Positions 17,207-27,573 of a DNA stretch of 39,661 nucleotides are shown in pieces (within the stretch, counting starts at the first letter, position 1; each line of letters opens with the position of its first letter). The position numbers and the translations under genes were made by a program. The notes below the pieces were generated by a model, which searched no databases, had not been told where the DNA came from, and saw only the letters and a program-made list of their open reading frames with translations. The stretch is from Klebsiella pneumoniae. Its GTDB lineage: Bacteria; Pseudomonadota; Gammaproteobacteria; Ga0077536. The stretch is taken from NCBI GenBank assembly GCA_945861225.1, contig CAMATU010000008.1, forward strand, positions 1 to 39,661. Direction: 5' to 3'.

Positions 17207-17680
17207 TCACACCGGTGTCGCAAGTAAGGTTTTCACGCGTGAGGTGTCGTACACCACCAAACGCTGCTTAAACTGCAACCCATCATCGGTGAACACGAGT
17301 TCGTCGTAATAGCTTCCCACCTGAAAGATCTCCGTGTCGCCCTCGCTCAGCGTTTGTACCACGATGTACGAAGACGCCACCTGGCAGCCCAGCGCGCTTT
17401 GTCCGGTCAACCGCACCCCCGAAAGTGCATGCCGATAGCGGTGGGGCTGAAAAATATTCGCTTTGCGCAATGAGAAAACACGATCACGCATCATTGCCTG
17501 GCTATCAAAGTAAACCAGTGGAATGGAATAGCCTTGCGCAAAATTCTCGCGCGATATCATTTTGTACTCGCCCGACTCGATGAACAGTAAGGGCCACTCC
17601 TCTAACCGATCTTCATCCAGACACGCACAGTACTCAGCGAACAACCGCTCAATGCGAAAATACAACTCACGCGCGTCCAT
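17207..17680 (-). CDS. Ring-hydroxylating dioxygenase beta subunit
   Basis: 157 residues from MDARELYFRIERLFAEYCACLDE. The ATG overlaps the alpha-subunit stop (TGATG), which favours coupling and decides the start over an in-frame ATG 12 codons upstream. It has the NTF2/SnoaL-like cone fold pattern of small dioxygenase subunits: WPLLFIESGEYKMISREN, then SLRKANIFQPHRYRHALSGVRL, and strands ending GLQFKQRLVVYDTSRVKTLL. These subunits are structural in alpha3beta3 hexamers. The closest pattern I recall is the NagH/AndAd type that pairs with salicylate 5-hydroxylase or anthranilate dioxygenase alpha subunits. Confidence 0.87.
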   Translation of the reverse strand: MDARELYFRIERLFAEYCACLDEDRLEEWPLLFIESGEYKMISRENFAQGYSIPLVYFDSQAMMRDRVFSLRKANIFQPHRYRHALSGVRLTGQSALGCQVASSYIVVQTLSEGDTEIFQVGSYYDELVFTDDGLQFKQRLVVYDTSRVKTLLATPV

Positions 17681-18921
17681 CACGCCCACCCCATCACGTG
17701 GCGGTAGCCGCTCCAAAAGCTGCGAATCATGTGCTCCGTGATCAAGCTGGTTTGTTGATCGAGCGCTGGATCGCCCATGCCGAGATACGACGCTGCCTCG
17801 TGCGGCGCCGAGGTGACTCCGCGTTGTACCAGTTCTGTGGCCTCGGTATCTTCCATGGAAATATAGCCCGCCGGACCCGCCAGATTCGCTTGCTTGTGAC
17901 GTAACGCCCGCAGTTCAGGATCGTCGTCCGCATAGCCAAAGAAATGAAAGACCAATTCAAATTCATCCACCTTCTTCGGCAGCACCTGGCGCACAGCGAG
18001 CGTGTTGTGGATTTGTTGAATGACGGTGCTCGGAAACAGGGTTTGAATATGATTGCTGGTCTGCTCTGCGAATTCCTGACGTACTTCGAGCATGCTCGGA
18101 TCATTGAGCTTAACCTGCTCTTGGTAGGTCGCGATGCCAGCCTGTTTGTACGCGTCGGCAGTGGCGTCGTCGGTGCGCGGGGTGCTGGTGATAATCGAAT
18201 GCAGGCCATGGCGAGCATCAATGATCGAGCGGCCTTGCATGTTAGAGCGATAAATATTGAAGGTGGTGTGAAATAAATGGAGCAGGCTCGCGTGATAGGG
18301 ATCTTTCACATTTTCGTAATAGAGCTTCCAGTTCGATTTCGCGTATTGGCGTGTGCAGCCGAGGTATTCAACGGGCTTATGGAAAATACGTGCGAGCCAC
18401 GGCAGCATTTCCGGCCCCAGATAATCGCTGAACGATTCTGCAGTCGCATCCAGAGTTCCAAACACCAAACCATGACATAGCTCAACGCGCACTGGCGGCA
18501 AAGCGTGTGCCGCCAAATCAAAATCGGCCGGCATGCCGGTTTGGGCATTCAAGCCGCCGCGAAAGGGCACGCCGCGTAACTGACCTTCCTGGGTGTAAGC
18601 CCATTGATGATAGACACAGGTGTGGCTGCGGGCGTTGCCGCGCAATTGACGACACACCAGGGCGCCCCGATGCGCGCAGCGGTTAATCCACGCGGCGAGT
18701 TTACCGGCAGCCGTTTGTGTGACGACGACTGGCGTGGTGCCGATATAGGTCGCTTTGAAATCTCCCGGCTTCTTAATTTCATCCGCGAGGGCCAGGAAGT
18801 GCCAGGTAGGTCCGCGGTAAATGCGTGCCTGCTCGCGTTCGAATACCGCCGGATCAGTGAACACCCAATAGGGGACAGTGTCGGTCTCGGTCCATTGTCG
18901 CGCGTGCTCCGAAGCGTTCAT
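17680..18921 (-). CDS. Rieske ring-hydroxylating dioxygenase alpha subunit
   Basis: 413 residues. Rieske [2Fe-2S] ligands are Cys82/His84 (CAHRG) and Cys102/His105 (CVYH). The mononuclear iron site follows as NVKDPYHASLLH with Asp207 bridging and His210/His215 binding iron. NWKLYYENVKDPYHASLLHLF resembles NagG/AndAc-type enzymes (salicylate 5-hydroxylase, anthranilate dioxygenase). It would hydroxylate an aromatic or unsaturated ring using O2 and electrons from a ferredoxin. With its beta subunit it forms a complete oxygenase, but no reductase lies next to it; the Rieske ferredoxin at 27595-27909 is a candidate partner. GAGGGG lies about 11 bases before the start. Confidence 0.93.
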   Translation of the reverse strand: MNASEHARQWTETDTVPYWVFTDPAVFEREQARIYRGPTWHFLALADEIKKPGDFKATYIGTTPVVVTQTAAGKLAAWINRCAHRGALVCRQLRGNARSHTCVYHQWAYTQEGQLRGVPFRGGLNAQTGMPADFDLAAHALPPVRVELCHGLVFGTLDATAESFSDYLGPEMLPWLARIFHKPVEYLGCTRQYAKSNWKLYYENVKDPYHASLLHLFHTTFNIYRSNMQGRSIIDARHGLHSIITSTPRTDDATADAYKQAGIATYQEQVKLNDPSMLEVRQEFAEQTSNHIQTLFPSTVIQQIHNTLAVRQVLPKKVDEFELVFHFFGYADDDPELRALRHKQANLAGPAGYISMEDTEATELVQRGVTSAPHEAASYLGMGDPALDQQTSLITEHMIRSFWSGYRHVMGWA

Positions 18922-20709: not shown

Positions 20710-21234
20710 TTAATTTGCGCGTCGACGCGACTTCGATGCTTGACGATTTTCGAACCAAGCGTTCATTTCAATAGAAAAAGTTTTGGGCATTTTATGGGCG
20801 ACGCCCTGCGCCAGTTCAGCTAAGCTGTGCCCGGCAAGGCTGCGCTTCATTGCTGTCTCTGCTTCCAGCATCACTTGGTGAATGCCACACAAACCTTTGG
20901 TCGCCCAGGTCGGAGGAGATCCGCGAAATAGCGCGCAGTTGCGCCGGATTTCTCTGCACTGGAATAGCGGCTTGGCGCCCTCCAGCGCCTCAATCACACT
21001 CAACACCGTGATGTCTTCTGCACGGCGCGCGAGACGATAGCCACCCTGCGCACCCTCGAGCGCGGTCACCAGGCCTGCGTTCTTCAGTTGAGTGAATAGC
21101 TTTGCAACATAAGACGGCGAGATACCCTGAATCTCGGCGAGATCAAGGCTGCTGACTTTCGCGGTGCTGGACGCATCCGCGAGATAGAGGAGGCAGTGCA
21201 GACCGTATTCCACACTTGCGCTATAGAGTGCCAT
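20710..21234 (-). CDS. Rrf2-family transcriptional regulator
   Basis: 174 residues with the N-terminal winged helix typical of Rrf2 proteins: MALYSASVEYGLHCLLYLAD, SSLDLAEIQGISPSYVAKLFTQLKNAGLV, GAQGGYRLARRAEDITVLSVIEALEG. Three cysteines follow in the sensor region, Cys93, Cys100 and Cys116 (FQCREIRRNC and GLCGIHQ). IscR and NsrR use Cys-x5-Cys-x5-Cys spacing, so this x6/x15 spacing is different, and whether it binds a cluster is open. It leads the operon with the NDH-2-like protein and cupin, suggesting redox or nitrosative sensing (inference). The ATG lacks a close Shine-Dalgarno sequence. Confidence 0.92.
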   Translation of the reverse strand: MALYSASVEYGLHCLLYLADASSTAKVSSLDLAEIQGISPSYVAKLFTQLKNAGLVTALEGAQGGYRLARRAEDITVLSVIEALEGAKPLFQCREIRRNCALFRGSPPTWATKGLCGIHQVMLEAETAMKRSLAGHSLAELAQGVAHKMPKTFSIEMNAWFENRQASKSRRRAN

Positions 21235-21429: not shown

Positions 21430-22650
21430 TCACCACTCTCCATTAACCAAGCGGTTCACCACGTCAAATTGATGGCGACAGGTGATCTCGGGATCGGAGA
21501 AATTGATTTCCTTGAGCGCACCGGAACGCATCCCCGCTTGCGAACTCTCGCTGGTGGCAATGTCTTCGCGGAATGCGTCACGCAACAAACTCAAAGACTG
21601 AGTTTGCCCAATTAGTGCACCAGCGTTGGCCGGCGCGGGGAAATGCATAGTCGCTTCCCAGCGGGTGGTGTTCGCATCGAGGGGCCAAAATTCGTGAATA
21701 AAAAAGAAGCCGAGCGAGGTATCGAGCAGGAAGTTCGGGAAAATTCCATTGATGTCGAACGAGAAATGATCGTCATTTTCCGGATTGGTACCGGGGAAAT
21801 TCTTGCTGAGTCCCGCCTCGCCCTGGCTCAAAGACTCACCCATCTTGATGGCGAATTCTTCCGAGCGATGAATTTGGAACTCGGGATTGAAGGGGATCGT
21901 CAACGCTCGGTTGCGTTTGTAGAGGCGCACCGAGGAAGGTCGGCAATATGGATTCGCCTTGCCGGTGTAATAGGTGTTGATCGTGGCCGAGTGCACCGTG
22001 GCAACATGATAACCCTCTTGAAAGGCGTCGATGAACAGCTTCCAGTTGGCTTTCAGGGTTGCGCCCCAATGACCCGCCACGAGCATCTCTTCGAACGGAA
22101 ACGCGGCCAGCTGGATGCCGGTTTCGGCGAGCTGCTCGGCGAGTGTCTCGCGCGGCTGCTCATCGAAGTTTACGAACACGAAGCCCTTCCAAACCTCGCA
22201 ATGCACTTTCTGCAGATTGATCTTCGATTTATCGAGATCAAAGAACTGCGATTCATCGGCGACGTGCCGATTCTTGCCCTCGGTATCGTAAACCCAGCCA
22301 TGAAATTTGCAGGTGAAATATTTGCAATGACCCGCGCCCGCCGCAAGCGCGGTGCCACGGTGCCGGCACACGTTATGGAACGCCCGCACGCGGTTATCCG
22401 TGCCGCGCACTATGATGAGATTGGCGTTGAGAACTTCGAACACTCGCACATAAAAGTCGCCGGGACGCCCCAATTTCTCTGTGCGTCCAGCCAGCAGCCA
22501 CATGCGGCGGAAGATCGTGTCGCGTTCGCGCGCGAAATACGCGTCCGAGAGGTAGGGCTCGACGGAGACCGGGCCAGTCGACATCTCGGGATAACGCGCG
22601 CGGTAATTGCGCGTGCTCGACGCCAGATCCAATTTTTCTTCACGGCCCAT
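21430..22650 (-). CDS. Rieske non-haem iron oxygenase alpha subunit (module 1)
   Basis: 406 residues from the ATG at 22650, which GGAGG precedes at 6 bases; the upstream ATG overlaps that site. Rieske ligands are Cys95/His97 (CRHRG) and Cys114/His117 (CKFH). The iron site reads DAFQEGYHVATVH with His215/His220, and the acid before them is Glu212 where naphthalene dioxygenase has its bridging Asp. It is a paralogue of the product of 23603-24892, sharing RYP-GP-EPY, WKLFIDAFQEGYHV, HEFWP and LLRDAFRED. No beta subunit adjoins. It follows a small protein gene on the same strand, mirroring the second module. The substrate is unknown; ring or side-chain hydroxylation or demethylation is possible. 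Confidence 0.92.
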   Translation of the reverse strand: MGREEKLDLASSTRNYRARYPEMSTGPVSVEPYLSDAYFARERDTIFRRMWLLAGRTEKLGRPGDFYVRVFEVLNANLIIVRGTDNRVRAFHNVCRHRGTALAAGAGHCKYFTCKFHGWVYDTEGKNRHVADESQFFDLDKSKINLQKVHCEVWKGFVFVNFDEQPRETLAEQLAETGIQLAAFPFEEMLVAGHWGATLKANWKLFIDAFQEGYHVATVHSATINTYYTGKANPYCRPSSVRLYKRNRALTIPFNPEFQIHRSEEFAIKMGESLSQGEAGLSKNFPGTNPENDDHFSFDINGIFPNFLLDTSLGFFFIHEFWPLDANTTRWEATMHFPAPANAGALIGQTQSLSLLRDAFREDIATSESSQAGMRSGALKEINFSDPEITCRHQFDVVNRLVNGEW

Positions 22651-22691
22651 GGCTATCCTCCTCAATGATGTTGGATTGAATTTCGCGCTGG

Positions 22692-23048
22692 TTACGCGCG
22701 TGGGTCAATCACGCGATAACGTGGTGTGACAGGGAAGATTTGATACTTCTCATAAGCGACCGCGTCGGGTACGTCGGGACGCTGGTAGTACTCGATGGCG
22801 GGCGCCACCTCCATCGTCATCAACGCCAGCTCCAGCAAATTCGCCGCGGCACGGGGCAACGCATCTAACGGCAGTTCATTCAAATACAAGGTGATCCCCT
22901 CCAATTGCGGCATAAGCGCATCGTAGAATTCCTGCAAGCGCGCGAGCGGCTGTTGAGTCCGAAAAGCGTTGCGCGCATGCTCGGTTGCATGCGTCCAGGT
23001 GGGGACGAAGCGCGACAGTTCGGAGAAGCCAGGGGGTAATTCAAACAT
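22692..23048 (-). CDS. Small unrecognised Rieske-associated protein (module 1)
   Basis: 118 residues from MFELPPGFSELSRF, chosen because the paralogue at 23231 starts at the matching point; a GTG nine codons upstream is the alternative. Conserved features shared by the two are LPP-F--L-RF---W, ERARN-FR-Q-like segment, LDA-PR-AA-LL-L-LM-MEV-PA-E-Y and PDVP-A. Identity is about 45% by eye. It appears all-helical, with no cysteine or histidine cluster, no signal peptide and no known domain that I can name. It lies 41 bases before the Rieske gene on the same strand. A partner, stabilising or substrate-delivery subunit for that oxygenase is an inference from the repeated pairing. Confidence 0.8.
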   Translation of the reverse strand: MFELPPGFSELSRFVPTWTHATEHARNAFRTQQPLARLQEFYDALMPQLEGITLYLNELPLDALPRAAANLLELALMTMEVAPAIEYYQRPDVPDAVAYEKYQIFPVTPRYRVIDPRA

Positions 23049-23230
23049 AGCGAAATCTGCCGTGAGACGGTCCACGTCAGAGTATTAGCAACCGGCGTTC
23101 ACGGCAAGTGCAAATCCCTGAGGCCGCGCAGGCGGTGGGTGGTCGGACGCGTCCTATGTTGACAACCTTGCTCAGGAGAAACTACCGTCGGCTCTCTTAA
23201 CCTTCGTAGTCACTGTAGGTGCACGCCGCC
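23049..23230. promoter_or_regulatory. Divergent promoter region between the two modules
   Basis: This 182-base spacer separates the two oppositely oriented small-protein genes and must carry the start signals for both arms. A TTGACA hexamer lies at 23159-23164, oriented for the plus-strand arm, but the matching -10 region 17 bases on (CTACCG) is poor, so activation by a regulator is plausible. I see no clear operator palindrome and no regulator gene beside it. Confidence 0.4.
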
Positions 23231-23581
23231 ATGTCTATGTTGCCCCCCGAATTTGTCGATCTGGAACGCTTTGCGGCCGACTGGGCGCTGCCCTCGGAAC
23301 GCGCGCGAAATCAATTCCGTGTGCAGCGTTCGCTGCCCGAACTGGAAGACTATTACCAAACGATTTTCCCGCGCATGGATGCCCTGTGCGATTACATCGA
23401 TCAATTCTCGCTGGATGCGATGCCGCGCCCGGCAGCGCGCTTGCTCCAGCTCGGGCTCATGTTGATGGAGGTGGTGCCGGCAGTGGAAATCTATCGGGCA
23501 CCGGACGTCCCAAACGCGATTGTGCATGACCGGTTACGGATCCTCTCGCCGAACGATCCCGTCAAAATCCTCGATAACTAA
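23231..23581 (+). CDS. Small unrecognised Rieske-associated protein (module 2)
   Basis: 116 residues from MSMLPPEFVDLERFAADW; an in-frame GTG at 23219 and an ATG at 23237 are alternatives. It is the paralogue of 22692-23048 and shows the same blocks: LPPEF--LERF, ERARNQFRVQRSLPELEDYY, LDAMPRPAARLLQLGLMLMEVVPAVEIY and APDVPNAI. The conserved MEV-PA-E-Y-PDVP stretch is the best family marker. No named domain is recognised. It starts 21 bases before the second Rieske gene's ribosome binding region, so the two are likely one transcript. The repeated association suggests a dedicated partner of this oxygenase type. Confidence 0.82.
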   Translation: MSMLPPEFVDLERFAADWALPSERARNQFRVQRSLPELEDYYQTIFPRMDALCDYIDQFSLDAMPRPAARLLQLGLMLMEVVPAVEIYRAPDVPNAIVHDRLRILSPNDPVKILDN

Positions 23582-23602
23582 CTTGAATCCCAGGAGCCCG
23601 AC

Positions 23603-24892
23603 ATGAGTGCGAACCCGATCGAAACCAGAGAATCGCGCGCCAAACGACTGCCGGACTGGGCCAACCGTCGGCCGATCTCCGAACGTTATCCGCAGGTAGA
23701 CATGGGACCACTACCCATTGAACCGTATATTTCTGAGGAATTTTTCGAGGCCGAACGCGCGAAAATCTTCAAACGCATGTGGCTCTATGTAGGACGCGCC
23801 GAGCGGATCCCGAAGCCGGGAGATTATTTCACGCAGACCATCGAAGCGGTGCGCACCAAGAAAGAGGGGACCTACCCCTCATTCATCATCTGTCGGGATC
23901 AACACGGCGAGATCCGCGCGCACTACAACACCTGCCAGCACCGTGGCACCACCGTGGCCTGGGACGACCCTCAAACCTGGGACACGTCGCATCGTCGCTA
24001 CTTCGCGTGTCGTTTCCACGGTTGGGTGTACAACCCCGACGGGACGCTCAAATCGGTGCCGGATGAAAATCAATTTTGCAATCTGAACAAAGCCGAGCGC
24101 GGCTTGAAGCCTGTGCATTGCGCGGTGTGGAAGGACTTCATATTCATCAACGTGGATCCTGCGCCGCGCCAGACTTTGTTGGAACAGATCAAACCGCATG
24201 CTGAGTTGTTAAAAGACTTTCCGTTCGAACGGATCCGCAAACGCGGAATTTGGACCGCCACCGTGGACGTCAACTGGAAAGTCGCCGTTGACGCCTTCCA
24301 GGAGGGCTACCATGTCAACACCGTGCATGCCTCGACTTTGCCTGAAGCGTTCAACGGCCCGTTGAACCCGAACTGTCGCCCGACTTCAATCCGTATCTTC
24401 CCCGATGGGAATCGCTCAGTGACTTTCATGGTCTCGCCAGATTTCACACCTCCGGAAGTCGAAAAATGGGTGCGCCAGCGCGGCTCGAGCTGGTATGCCT
24501 CTGGCGGCGGTGACTCGACGAAGGCTTATCCTGGCGTGAATCCAGATCAGGACCCGTTCTACGCTTTCGACTGCCACGGGTTTTTCCCGAACATGCTGGT
24601 AGATCCGTTTGTCGGTGGCTACTACGGTCACGAGTTCTGGCCGATCTCAGTCAACAAAACGCGCTGGATTGGCAGCATCAACTTTGTGGATGCACAAAAG
24701 CCCAGCGATTTGATTGCCAACGAACACGGCAAGACCTTGCTGCGCGATGCCTTCCGCGAGGACACTGTGACGTTGGACGCAACCCAGGTCGGTCTGGAGT
24801 CTGGTGCGATCACTTCAACGATTCTGTGCGACGGCGAAATGGCCCCGCGCCATCTCTATAACTCGGTGGTGGAGATGGTGAATCGCGATTAA
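23603..24892 (+). CDS. Rieske non-haem iron oxygenase alpha subunit (module 2)
   Basis: 429 residues with CAGGAG 8 bases before the ATG. Rieske ligands are Cys111/His113 (CQHRG) and Cys136/His139 (CRFH). The 22 residues between the pairs are six more than in its paralogue, caused by an insert around WDDPQTWDTSHRR, so the cluster loop is enlarged. The iron site is DAFQEGYHVNTVH with Glu234, His237 and His242. A second small expansion (RTKKEGTYPS) lies in the strand before the cluster. There is no beta subunit. It follows the small partner gene and precedes the cytochrome c/propeller gene by 28 bases, likely one operon. The substrate is unknown. Confidence 0.92.
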   Translation: MSANPIETRESRAKRLPDWANRRPISERYPQVDMGPLPIEPYISEEFFEAERAKIFKRMWLYVGRAERIPKPGDYFTQTIEAVRTKKEGTYPSFIICRDQHGEIRAHYNTCQHRGTTVAWDDPQTWDTSHRRYFACRFHGWVYNPDGTLKSVPDENQFCNLNKAERGLKPVHCAVWKDFIFINVDPAPRQTLLEQIKPHAELLKDFPFERIRKRGIWTATVDVNWKVAVDAFQEGYHVNTVHASTLPEAFNGPLNPNCRPTSIRIFPDGNRSVTFMVSPDFTPPEVEKWVRQRGSSWYASGGGDSTKAYPGVNPDQDPFYAFDCHGFFPNMLVDPFVGGYYGHEFWPISVNKTRWIGSINFVDAQKPSDLIANEHGKTLLRDAFREDTVTLDATQVGLESGAITSTILCDGEMAPRHLYNSVVEMVNRD

Positions 24893-24920: not shown

Positions 24921-26693
24921 ATGCGTTCGTGGTTGTTCTCTTCCCACCTTGCGCTTGCGTTGTTGCTGGCGCCGTCCGCGCACGGCGCGCCGCTGACAGT
25001 TGCGGGGACCGTGGTCGATGCGCAGGGCACACCTCTGCCCTATGTCCGGCTGACGCTCTCCGGCGCCGCCGTCGCCCCGCTGACCACCAGCGTGTTTTCC
25101 GTTAAGGACGGCAGATTCAGCGCGACTTTGAAAGACGCGGATCCCGCGCAGATTAAAGTCACGAGCTTCCGCATCGGTTGGCAGGAAAGCGCGCGCGAAG
25201 TCACCCAACTCGCGGGGATCACGCAACTCAAACTGACGATGACGACACTCACCAATGTTGCCGACCAAGTGCCCGCCTCGGCGTGGATCCCCGGGACGCC
25301 AGGTGACCGCGACTTTCATATTTTGATCAACGAATGCGCGGGCTGCCACCAACTAGGCGCGGCACGCGTTAAGCGCTTTGCGCAGAGCTTGGCCGGACAG
25401 CCGTTGGCCACGCGCACCGCTGCGTGGGAGGCGATCGTGCAGTTCATGCGTGCACAGGCCCTGCGGATTGGACCTTCTGGGGATATGCATTTGCGCTGGG
25501 GACTCACTGAAGAAAGCCCGGATTACAAAATGGCGACGGCACCGGAGACCAGTTTCTTCCTGCCGCGGGACATGGAACGCGTGGTGCCTTTCCTCGCCAA
25601 GAACTACCCGACCAGTTTCGATAACTATACGGATTACCACGATATCGAGCGCTTGGGCGAATACGGAGTGACCGCCCAGACCGTGGTCGAGGAATATGCG
25701 TTACCCACTTTCGGCTGGACCCGGGAAGTCAGCATCGCACCAGGTTCCAGAAAAGTTTGGTTCGTGGAACTCGATGCAGATCGGTTGGGCGCCTTGGATC
25801 CTATGAGTGGCACAGTCGAATGGTTCGATGTGCCCGGCGACGGGCCGCAGGGTCCGCATACCTTGAACGCCGACGCCGACGGCAATTTGTGGGTCCCGCT
25901 GGAGGAAAGTTACTCGGTCGGGCGCTTCAACACCCAAAGCCATGAGTGGAAGGTGTATCCACCACCGGCGGGTGTGAAATTTGCGATTACGCATGACACG
26001 GCCATCAACGGCAAACGACAGGTACAGTTTGATGCGCATGGCCGGCTGTGGCTGACACTCGTCGGAATCAATGAATTATGGAGTGTGGACGTCAAATCCA
26101 GCCAGGTGAAACGTTTCCCGATGCCGTTGCCAGAGGGTGAGGAACAGTTTCATGTGTTTATTTATGGAGCGGCCATGGATCCCTCACTCAAGCGTGTGTG
26201 GTGGACCCAACTGCATGGTTCCCTTGGCTCGTTCAATGTGGAAACTGAGAAAGTCGAAAAGATCGTGCCGTTTCCACGTGGCGCCGCGCCGCGCCGCATG
26301 GCCATTGAGGACGACGGCACGCTGTGGGTTCCGCTTTATGGCGAAGGTCAGCTGCTGAAGTTCGATACTAAGCAGGGCGTAGAAGTGGCGCGCTACGATA
26401 TGCCGGATCGCGCTGGCGCTTCCTACTCGATCACGCTCGACAGCAAGCGCCGTGCCGTGTGGGTGGGCACCACAAACTCCGATCGCATTTACCGCTTCGA
26501 TATTGATACCACACGCTGGCGCCACTATCCCCTGCCACGCAAAGAAGCCTTTCTACGCATGATCGAGATTGATCATGAAACCGGTGATCTGTGGACCACC
26601 TACGCCAACCTGCCGATCGGCAAGCGCGATCCAGCGATCTACGGCAACGAGCACGCCAACAATATGATCGTGCGACTGCATCCAGGCGATTGA
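24921..26693 (+). CDS. Exported cytochrome c / Vgb-like beta-propeller fusion
   Basis: 590 residues. In order: a signal peptide (LFSSHLALALLLAPSAHG); a carboxypeptidase-regulatory-like beta domain (VAGTVVDAQGTPLPYVRLTLSG) to about residue 110; a single c-type haem motif CAGCH at 139-143 within a small cytochrome-like domain; then from about 240 a beta-propeller of the virginiamycin B lyase (Vgb) type. The propeller has repeated blades such as DADGNLWVPLEESYSVGRFN, DAHGRLWLTLVGINELW, EDDGTLWVPLYGEGQLLKFD and KRRAVWVGTTNSDRIYRFD. It should be periplasmic. The role is unknown: electron transfer coupled to lactone or ester chemistry is one possibility. It sits in the module 2 operon with GAGG at 8 bases. 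Confidence 0.85.
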   Translation: MRSWLFSSHLALALLLAPSAHGAPLTVAGTVVDAQGTPLPYVRLTLSGAAVAPLTTSVFSVKDGRFSATLKDADPAQIKVTSFRIGWQESAREVTQLAGITQLKLTMTTLTNVADQVPASAWIPGTPGDRDFHILINECAGCHQLGAARVKRFAQSLAGQPLATRTAAWEAIVQFMRAQALRIGPSGDMHLRWGLTEESPDYKMATAPETSFFLPRDMERVVPFLAKNYPTSFDNYTDYHDIERLGEYGVTAQTVVEEYALPTFGWTREVSIAPGSRKVWFVELDADRLGALDPMSGTVEWFDVPGDGPQGPHTLNADADGNLWVPLEESYSVGRFNTQSHEWKVYPPPAGVKFAITHDTAINGKRQVQFDAHGRLWLTLVGINELWSVDVKSSQVKRFPMPLPEGEEQFHVFIYGAAMDPSLKRVWWTQLHGSLGSFNVETEKVEKIVPFPRGAAPRRMAIEDDGTLWVPLYGEGQLLKFDTKQGVEVARYDMPDRAGASYSITLDSKRRAVWVGTTNSDRIYRFDIDTTRWRHYPLPRKEAFLRMIEIDHETGDLWTTYANLPIGKRDPAIYGNEHANNMIVRLHPGD

Positions 26694-26940: not shown

Positions 26941-27573
26941 ATGAGCGAATTAAAGTTTGCGCTGCGATGGGATGAAACACGTTACGACGTGTGCACCGCG
27001 TCGCTTAAGCTCATCGAAATCGCTCTGCGCCAGAGCATTTTCACGCTTGCATTGTTGGGTGTATTGGTGCCGAGTTTCGCGCAGGAAATTTCTGCGCTCG
27101 AAGATGAGGCTGAGGTCTTTACGCAAGGAGATCTTCAAGTTACGGATCCCTGGGCGGCAAGCGCAATCGGCAACGCGCACGCAGCACAAGTCTTCTTCGA
27201 GTTTCGCAATCGTGGCACCGCCGCCGATCAATTGCTGGACGCCCGTACCCCTCTCGCCAGCGGGCACGCCTTACGCCTGGTGACCCAGGTCAATGGACAA
27301 CCCAAGCTCCGTACACTCCAGGTGATTGAGATTCCTGCAGGCGGTGACTCCTTCGAGTTGAGCCGACATGGTTACTATATTGAGCTCACGGGATTAACGG
27401 TCCCACTCACCATGGGCAAACGATTTTCGCTGTTGCTAACATTCAAGCGCGCTGGTCGGATGACGGTCGAGGTGACCAGTCGATTTCACTCACCGAAGTT
27501 GACTCGCCGCATTCGTGATGCCGCGCGCCGCGGAGATGTTGTGGAACTAAATCGTCTGCGCGAGTCGCCTTGA
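26941..27573 (+). CDS. PCu(A)C-like periplasmic protein lacking copper ligands
   Basis: 210 residues. A hydrophobic stretch at about 30-47 (IFTLALLGVLVPSFAQ) serves as a signal peptide after an unusually long N-terminal extension, so the true start may lie further in. The main domain follows the PCu(A)C copper chaperone pattern: LQVTDPWAASAIGNAHAAQVFFEFRNRG, then LRTLQVIEIPAGGDSFELSRHGYYIELTGLTVPLTMGKRFSLLLTFKRAG. The family's copper-binding His-Met residues are absent: the first His/Met pair is replaced in LVTQVNGQPKLRTLQ and the HxM element reads HGY. The C-terminal tail RRIRDAARRGDVVELNRLRES resembles the start of an ankyrin repeat. Copper transfer is therefore unlikely. Confidence 0.7.
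   Translation: MSELKFALRWDETRYDVCTASLKLIEIALRQSIFTLALLGVLVPSFAQEISALEDEAEVFTQGDLQVTDPWAASAIGNAHAAQVFFEFRNRGTAADQLLDARTPLASGHALRLVTQVNGQPKLRTLQVIEIPAGGDSFELSRHGYYIELTGLTVPLTMGKRFSLLLTFKRAGRMTVEVTSRFHSPKLTRRIRDAARRGDVVELNRLRESP

Follow-up and report, generated by a model that had tools for sequence, protein, structure and literature searches.

A 39,661-nt stretch of DNA (the window) carries two small genes back to back, each followed by a gene for a Rieske oxygenase alpha subunit, which raises the question of whether the small protein (S) belongs to the oxygenase (R), and in what capacity. Rieske oxygenases degrade resistant chemicals with the help of oxygen. They are a common target of mining for biodegradation and biocatalysis, and are often expressed as alpha subunit plus reductase only. 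If the enzymes concerned need S, members expressed without it may fail, and the label "hypothetical protein" conceals a required component.

Two divergent S-R pairs in the window

A sequence-only reading of the window described two arms diverging from a 182-bp spacer, each with an S gene of 116-118 codons followed by an R gene. The coordinates were confirmed, with R1 ending at 21430 (Table 1). No sigma-70-like site was recognised in the spacer between S1 and S2. The same reading took both genes to be paralogous and estimated about 45% identity by eye for the small proteins. Alignment showed that 48 of 116 aligned residues are identical between S1 and S2 (41%; z = 41 against shuffles), while R1 and R2 agree in 166 of 416 columns (40%; z = 165 against shuffles), confirming that both are paralogous pairs.

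Table 1. Features of the divergent locus (positions in the 39,661-nt window)
Feature	Position	Strand	Remarks
R1, Rieske oxygenase alpha subunit	21430-22665	-	411 aa from TTG; ATG five codons in (22650) also possible
S1, putative small helical partner protein	22692-23048	-	118 aa from ATG; upstream GTG at 23075 gives 127 aa
Divergent spacer S1/S2	23049-23230		182 bp, ATG to ATG
S2, putative small helical partner protein	23231-23581	+	116 aa from ATG; upstream GTG at 23219 gives 120 aa; stop TAA
R2, Rieske oxygenase alpha subunit	23603-24892	+	429 aa; Rieske and mononuclear-iron ligands intact; bridging Glu234
Vgb-lyase-like propeller protein, downstream of R2	24921-26693	+	Pfam PF24684; conserved neighbour of S2-R2
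PCu(A)C copper-chaperone-like protein	26941-27573	+	Pfam PF04314; conserved neighbour of S2-R2 (synteny)

R1 and R2 scored far above the Pfam cut-offs for the Rieske and Ring_hydroxyl_A domains (PF00355 and PF00848 in R1), and both carry the CxH...CxxH Rieske motif and an acidic bridging residue. R1 was placed inside the S-linked clade described below. No beta-subunit gene was found beside R1 or R2, in agreement with the sequence-only reading; the sole beta gene of the window (17207-17716) overlaps a separate AndAc-like alpha gene at 17680-18921. These two genes form an AndAc/AndAd-like alpha-beta dioxygenase pair (17207-18921) that is distinct from R1/R2 and scores below the NCBIfam cut-offs. 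Directly downstream of R1 lies a gene for an Rrf2/IscR-like regulator (20710-21234), with a cysteine spacing unlike classic IscR, which may control the Rieske genes. On the other arm, synteny of the Vgb-lyase-like neighbour was found at three further loci (L051, L055 and L062) at 69-72% identity. The source genome has 19 matches to the alpha catalytic domain, yet only two S genes, S1 and S2.

An unrecognised family of small, predicted helical proteins

Neither S1 nor S2 matched a Pfam family at E<=1, and NCBIfam gave no meaningful match to either. Among 51 diverse members of the family, no repeated or significant match to Pfam or NCBIfam was observed, and the S profile found nothing among the sequences of solved structures in the PDB. 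S is a family unrecognised in Pfam, NCBIfam or PDB sequences, as the sequence-only reading had supposed. Annotated plasmid copies are labelled "hypothetical protein" in public annotation, and no account of S was found in the open-access literature, where most subscription papers are missing. Members have roughly 105-125 residues, and the conserved residues are L, P, F, W, R, Y and E. No Cys or His is conserved, so a redox or metal-carrier role of S is unlikely.

The structure of S2 was modelled by AlphaFold2 with an alignment of eight S rows. The model has four helices (residues 6-18, 23-31, 35-56 and 66-89) and an overall pLDDT of 82, with values of ~90 in the helices and ~50 in the tail from about residue 90. 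In this prediction S forms a four-helix bundle whose tail is floppy although conserved. Because this C-terminal tail is disordered in the model yet carries a partly conserved P..P...RF pattern (P94, P97, R104 and F105), it may become ordered on a partner. Structure searches with the model revealed no match above the level of common helical bundles (Foldseek, best E 3.3; VIA-align, best Z 5.6, which is that level).

The sequence-only reading had suggested that S perhaps replaces the beta subunit, as found in alpha3-beta3 Rieske oxygenases, and this suggestion fared poorly. It is true that R1 and R2 have no adjoining beta gene and that S stands next to alpha, where beta usually is; the beta subunit (PF00866, NTF2 fold; AndAd in the window) is likewise a small protein encoded beside alpha. 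However, the beta subunit has an alpha+beta fold, whereas S is predicted to be all-helical. Comparison of S with beta/NTF2 profiles gave an hhalign probability of 0.1, and neither PF00866 nor any other Pfam family was matched in the 51 S members. Moreover, an NTF2-fold SnoaL protein, itself beta-like or not, occurs together with S in operons of Acinetobacter, Novosphingobium, Azospirillum, Paroceanicella and Variovorax. The closest enzyme of known structure, carnitine monooxygenase CntA, has no beta subunit. We regard replacement of beta by S as very improbable.

Linkage of S to one Rieske clade

The first S collection comprised 66 S genes from ten plasmid loci, the window and relative genomes. 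A same-strand Rieske alpha gene adjoins 61 of them, and 62 have one within about 100 bp when the remnant L100 is counted. The other four are a transposon-broken copy on a lindane plasmid (L014), a copy that lies behind the remnant of an alpha gene (L016), one at a contig edge (L086) and one broken by a stop (L096). In a class-wide sample, every fetched S gene adjoins an alpha gene, apart from three for which about 1.1 kb separates the two; one of these gaps holds a gene for a luciferase-like monooxygenase in the same operon. Overlaps of 1-4 bp are frequent in annotated plasmid-borne S-R pairs.

A search that began with the alphas gave the same picture. All eight further full-length clade alphas on plasmids have S (E<=1e-17), in Rhodococcus qingshengii, Azospirillum, Paroceanicella, Variovorax, Novosphingobium and Sphingobium, and most of these S genes had been missed by the first S search. 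No S was found for the nearest alphas outside the clade (Acaryochloris and Diaphorobacter). S and clade alphas are both present in the same 7 of 369 genomes of the class sample and in the same 1 of 398 genomes of the phylum sample, and a scan of the whole collection with a narrower S alignment yielded six loci. The expectation that S adjoins its Rieske clade across genomes was thus upheld. The earlier proposal of a dedicated, undescribed partner of one Rieske branch also gained support, as S occurs almost only beside this clade and matched no characterised family.

Several loci show unusual arrangements. On plasmids of lindane degraders and on pLB1, three loci (L014, L231 and L247) have S and R near linC or linB, with the S and R genes disrupted by IS6100 and by a transposon of the Tn3 family. 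One S-R-R array (L054, 3459-6339) consists of one S followed by two tandem clade alphas, and L100 (4603-6216) is a decayed remnant whose sequence passes from the initial half of S into a fragment of a Rieske domain and from there into a different protein. No fused S-R gene was found among the S loci examined, a point against the partner reading; long open frames considered as natural fusions turned out to be overlapping frames, and the frame shared by L100 and L112 a decayed remnant.

We then placed 132 alphas, drawn from four genomes with broad alpha inventories and from the S-R pairs, on one tree. In this quick tree, for which the tool warns on long branches, S-linked rows make up 80 of the 83 in one starred clade. 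The remaining three are the stop-broken case, a case with one gene between and the second alpha of the S-R-R array. The S-linked label changes 4 times on the tree, compared with 40.7 in shuffles, and L095 is S-linked but lies outside the clade on a long branch. The Rieske ligands (C111, H113, C136 and H139) and the 2-His-1-carboxylate ligands (H237, H242 and D387) are invariant in the clade. The bridging residue E234 is present in 100% of its members, while other alphas mostly have Asp, and signature residues include P36, P188, N313, D323, G338, W346 and R416. The clade is spread over Pseudomonadota and Actinomycetota. These results show that S is linked to one alpha clade, and that other Rieske alphas in these genomes have no such link.

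S copies reach 12 per genome, with one S kept per clade alpha; one sampled genome has 65 alpha matches and 8 S genes. So many matched copies fit a specific partner better than a helper that several enzymes would share. The genome G295 (3,243,537 bases, one contig) has 65 Rieske alpha catalytic-domain matches, an extreme expansion, and in its family 4-12 S genes were found in all 7 genomes examined (e.g. loci L198-L225 in G295).

Co-evolution was assessed in 78 distinct S-R pairs. The S and R distance matrices are correlated at r = 0.83 against a permutation maximum of 0.09, and the two trees have 41 of 75 splits in common, compared with 0.2 by chance. S lies on one side of R in 45 pairs and on the other side in 33, and the order has switched at least 6 times on the tree with adjacency kept. 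With the species tree removed, co-evolution within genomes was positive in 5/5 genomes and significant in two (r = 0.67 and 0.64); it was not significant in G184, G389 and G295. S and R are transferred, duplicated and degraded as a pair. Shared cassette transfer and duplication can also raise the agreement of S and R trees without contact between the proteins.

These data bear on whether S could be an independent pathway protein that shares operons with the oxygenase without touching it, with a role in catalysis, binding or regulation for some recurring class of substrate. This account draws on the fact that S-R binding is something we infer, and on neighbour genes that vary widely between loci, which indicates that the pathways are degradative and mixed. 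However, the linkage tracks the alpha clade and not the pathway, gene order flips while adjacency stays, genomes rich in clade alphas are also rich in S copies, and S lacks the conserved Cys or His noted above. An independent pathway protein is improbable on this evidence.

Within the window, the S1-R1 and S2-R2 lineages fall in the same nine-row clade in both the S and the R tree. Because both trees group the two lineages, the S-R pair was duplicated as a unit, and this half of the earlier proposal, duplication and inversion together, was retained. The inversion was not borne out in the same way: orthologous S2-R2-Vgb-PCuAC operons elsewhere have no S1-R1 beside them, so the mirror layout is not conserved among S2-R2 relatives and may be secondary.

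Proposed role of S and comparison with known systems

We consider it likely that S serves one Rieske alpha clade as a dedicated helical partner without cofactor, either an accessory subunit or an assembly partner, whose binding we infer. Most likely, S would be an accessory subunit that binds its cognate alpha chain in a presumed stoichiometry, with contact perhaps made through the conserved but floppy C-terminal tail. S would then be needed so that the enzyme assembles, stays soluble, or takes electrons and substrate correctly, any of which could be the assisted step. A co-fold of S2 and R2, with the in-frame S2 stop read through, had a mean pLDDT of 51, with R not modelled and the S tail disordered, and was uninformative on binding.

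S might instead be a dedicated assembly chaperone of its own alpha chain that leaves after folding, trimerisation or metal loading. Such a role would suit a protein that is predicted to be all-helical, is cofactor-free, is kept at one copy per enzyme paralogue and co-evolves with R; the isolated S model is also confident, with its conserved tail disordered, as expected of a partner-binding segment. TorD and NarJ are helical chaperones each serving one enzyme, but their likeness to S is one of general analogy, with no fold match found, and the data fit a transient and a permanent partner alike. We rank a permanent accessory subunit first in likelihood and an assembly chaperone second, although the chaperone reading is itself rather unlikely.

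In S, annotation pipelines have probably passed over a dedicated working partner of the oxygenase. We also lean, somewhat less firmly, towards the broader view that a clade extending over Pseudomonadota and Actinomycetota depends on a new helical accessory subunit, a third kind beside alpha and beta, with its own matched copy for each alpha paralogue. The novelty would lie in a clade of Rieske oxygenases that has a family of accessory proteins to itself, one unmatched in Pfam, NCBIfam and PDB sequences.

Among solved enzymes, the clade profile hits CntA best (6y8j, E 1.5e-50), and the CntA/GbcA NCBIfam model was matched by all 12 clade members tested. The bridging Glu of the clade aligns with the E in "NYMECYH" of CntA, so that both have Glu instead of Asp. 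R1 and R2 reach 113 and 85 bits with the GbcA/CntA equivalog NF058607, far below its cut-off of 670 bits. To our knowledge, no S gene has been described alongside CntA or GbcA.

Diiron monooxygenases have small, cofactor-free auxiliary proteins encoded with each oxygenase (the effectors MmoB/TmoD, and MmoD/DmpK). S resembles them by description, but they are partners of a different oxygenase class. IacD is a protein that we take to be a beta-type subunit. In the Marinomonas indole-acetate cluster, iacD is the gene after iacC and is annotated "hypothetical protein" (PMC11373566). The closest concept to S is NdmE, postulated to be a structural protein in the NdmCDE caffeine N7-demethylase complex (PMC4408171); S differs from it as a predicted helical protein of the size given above that is spread over a whole clade.
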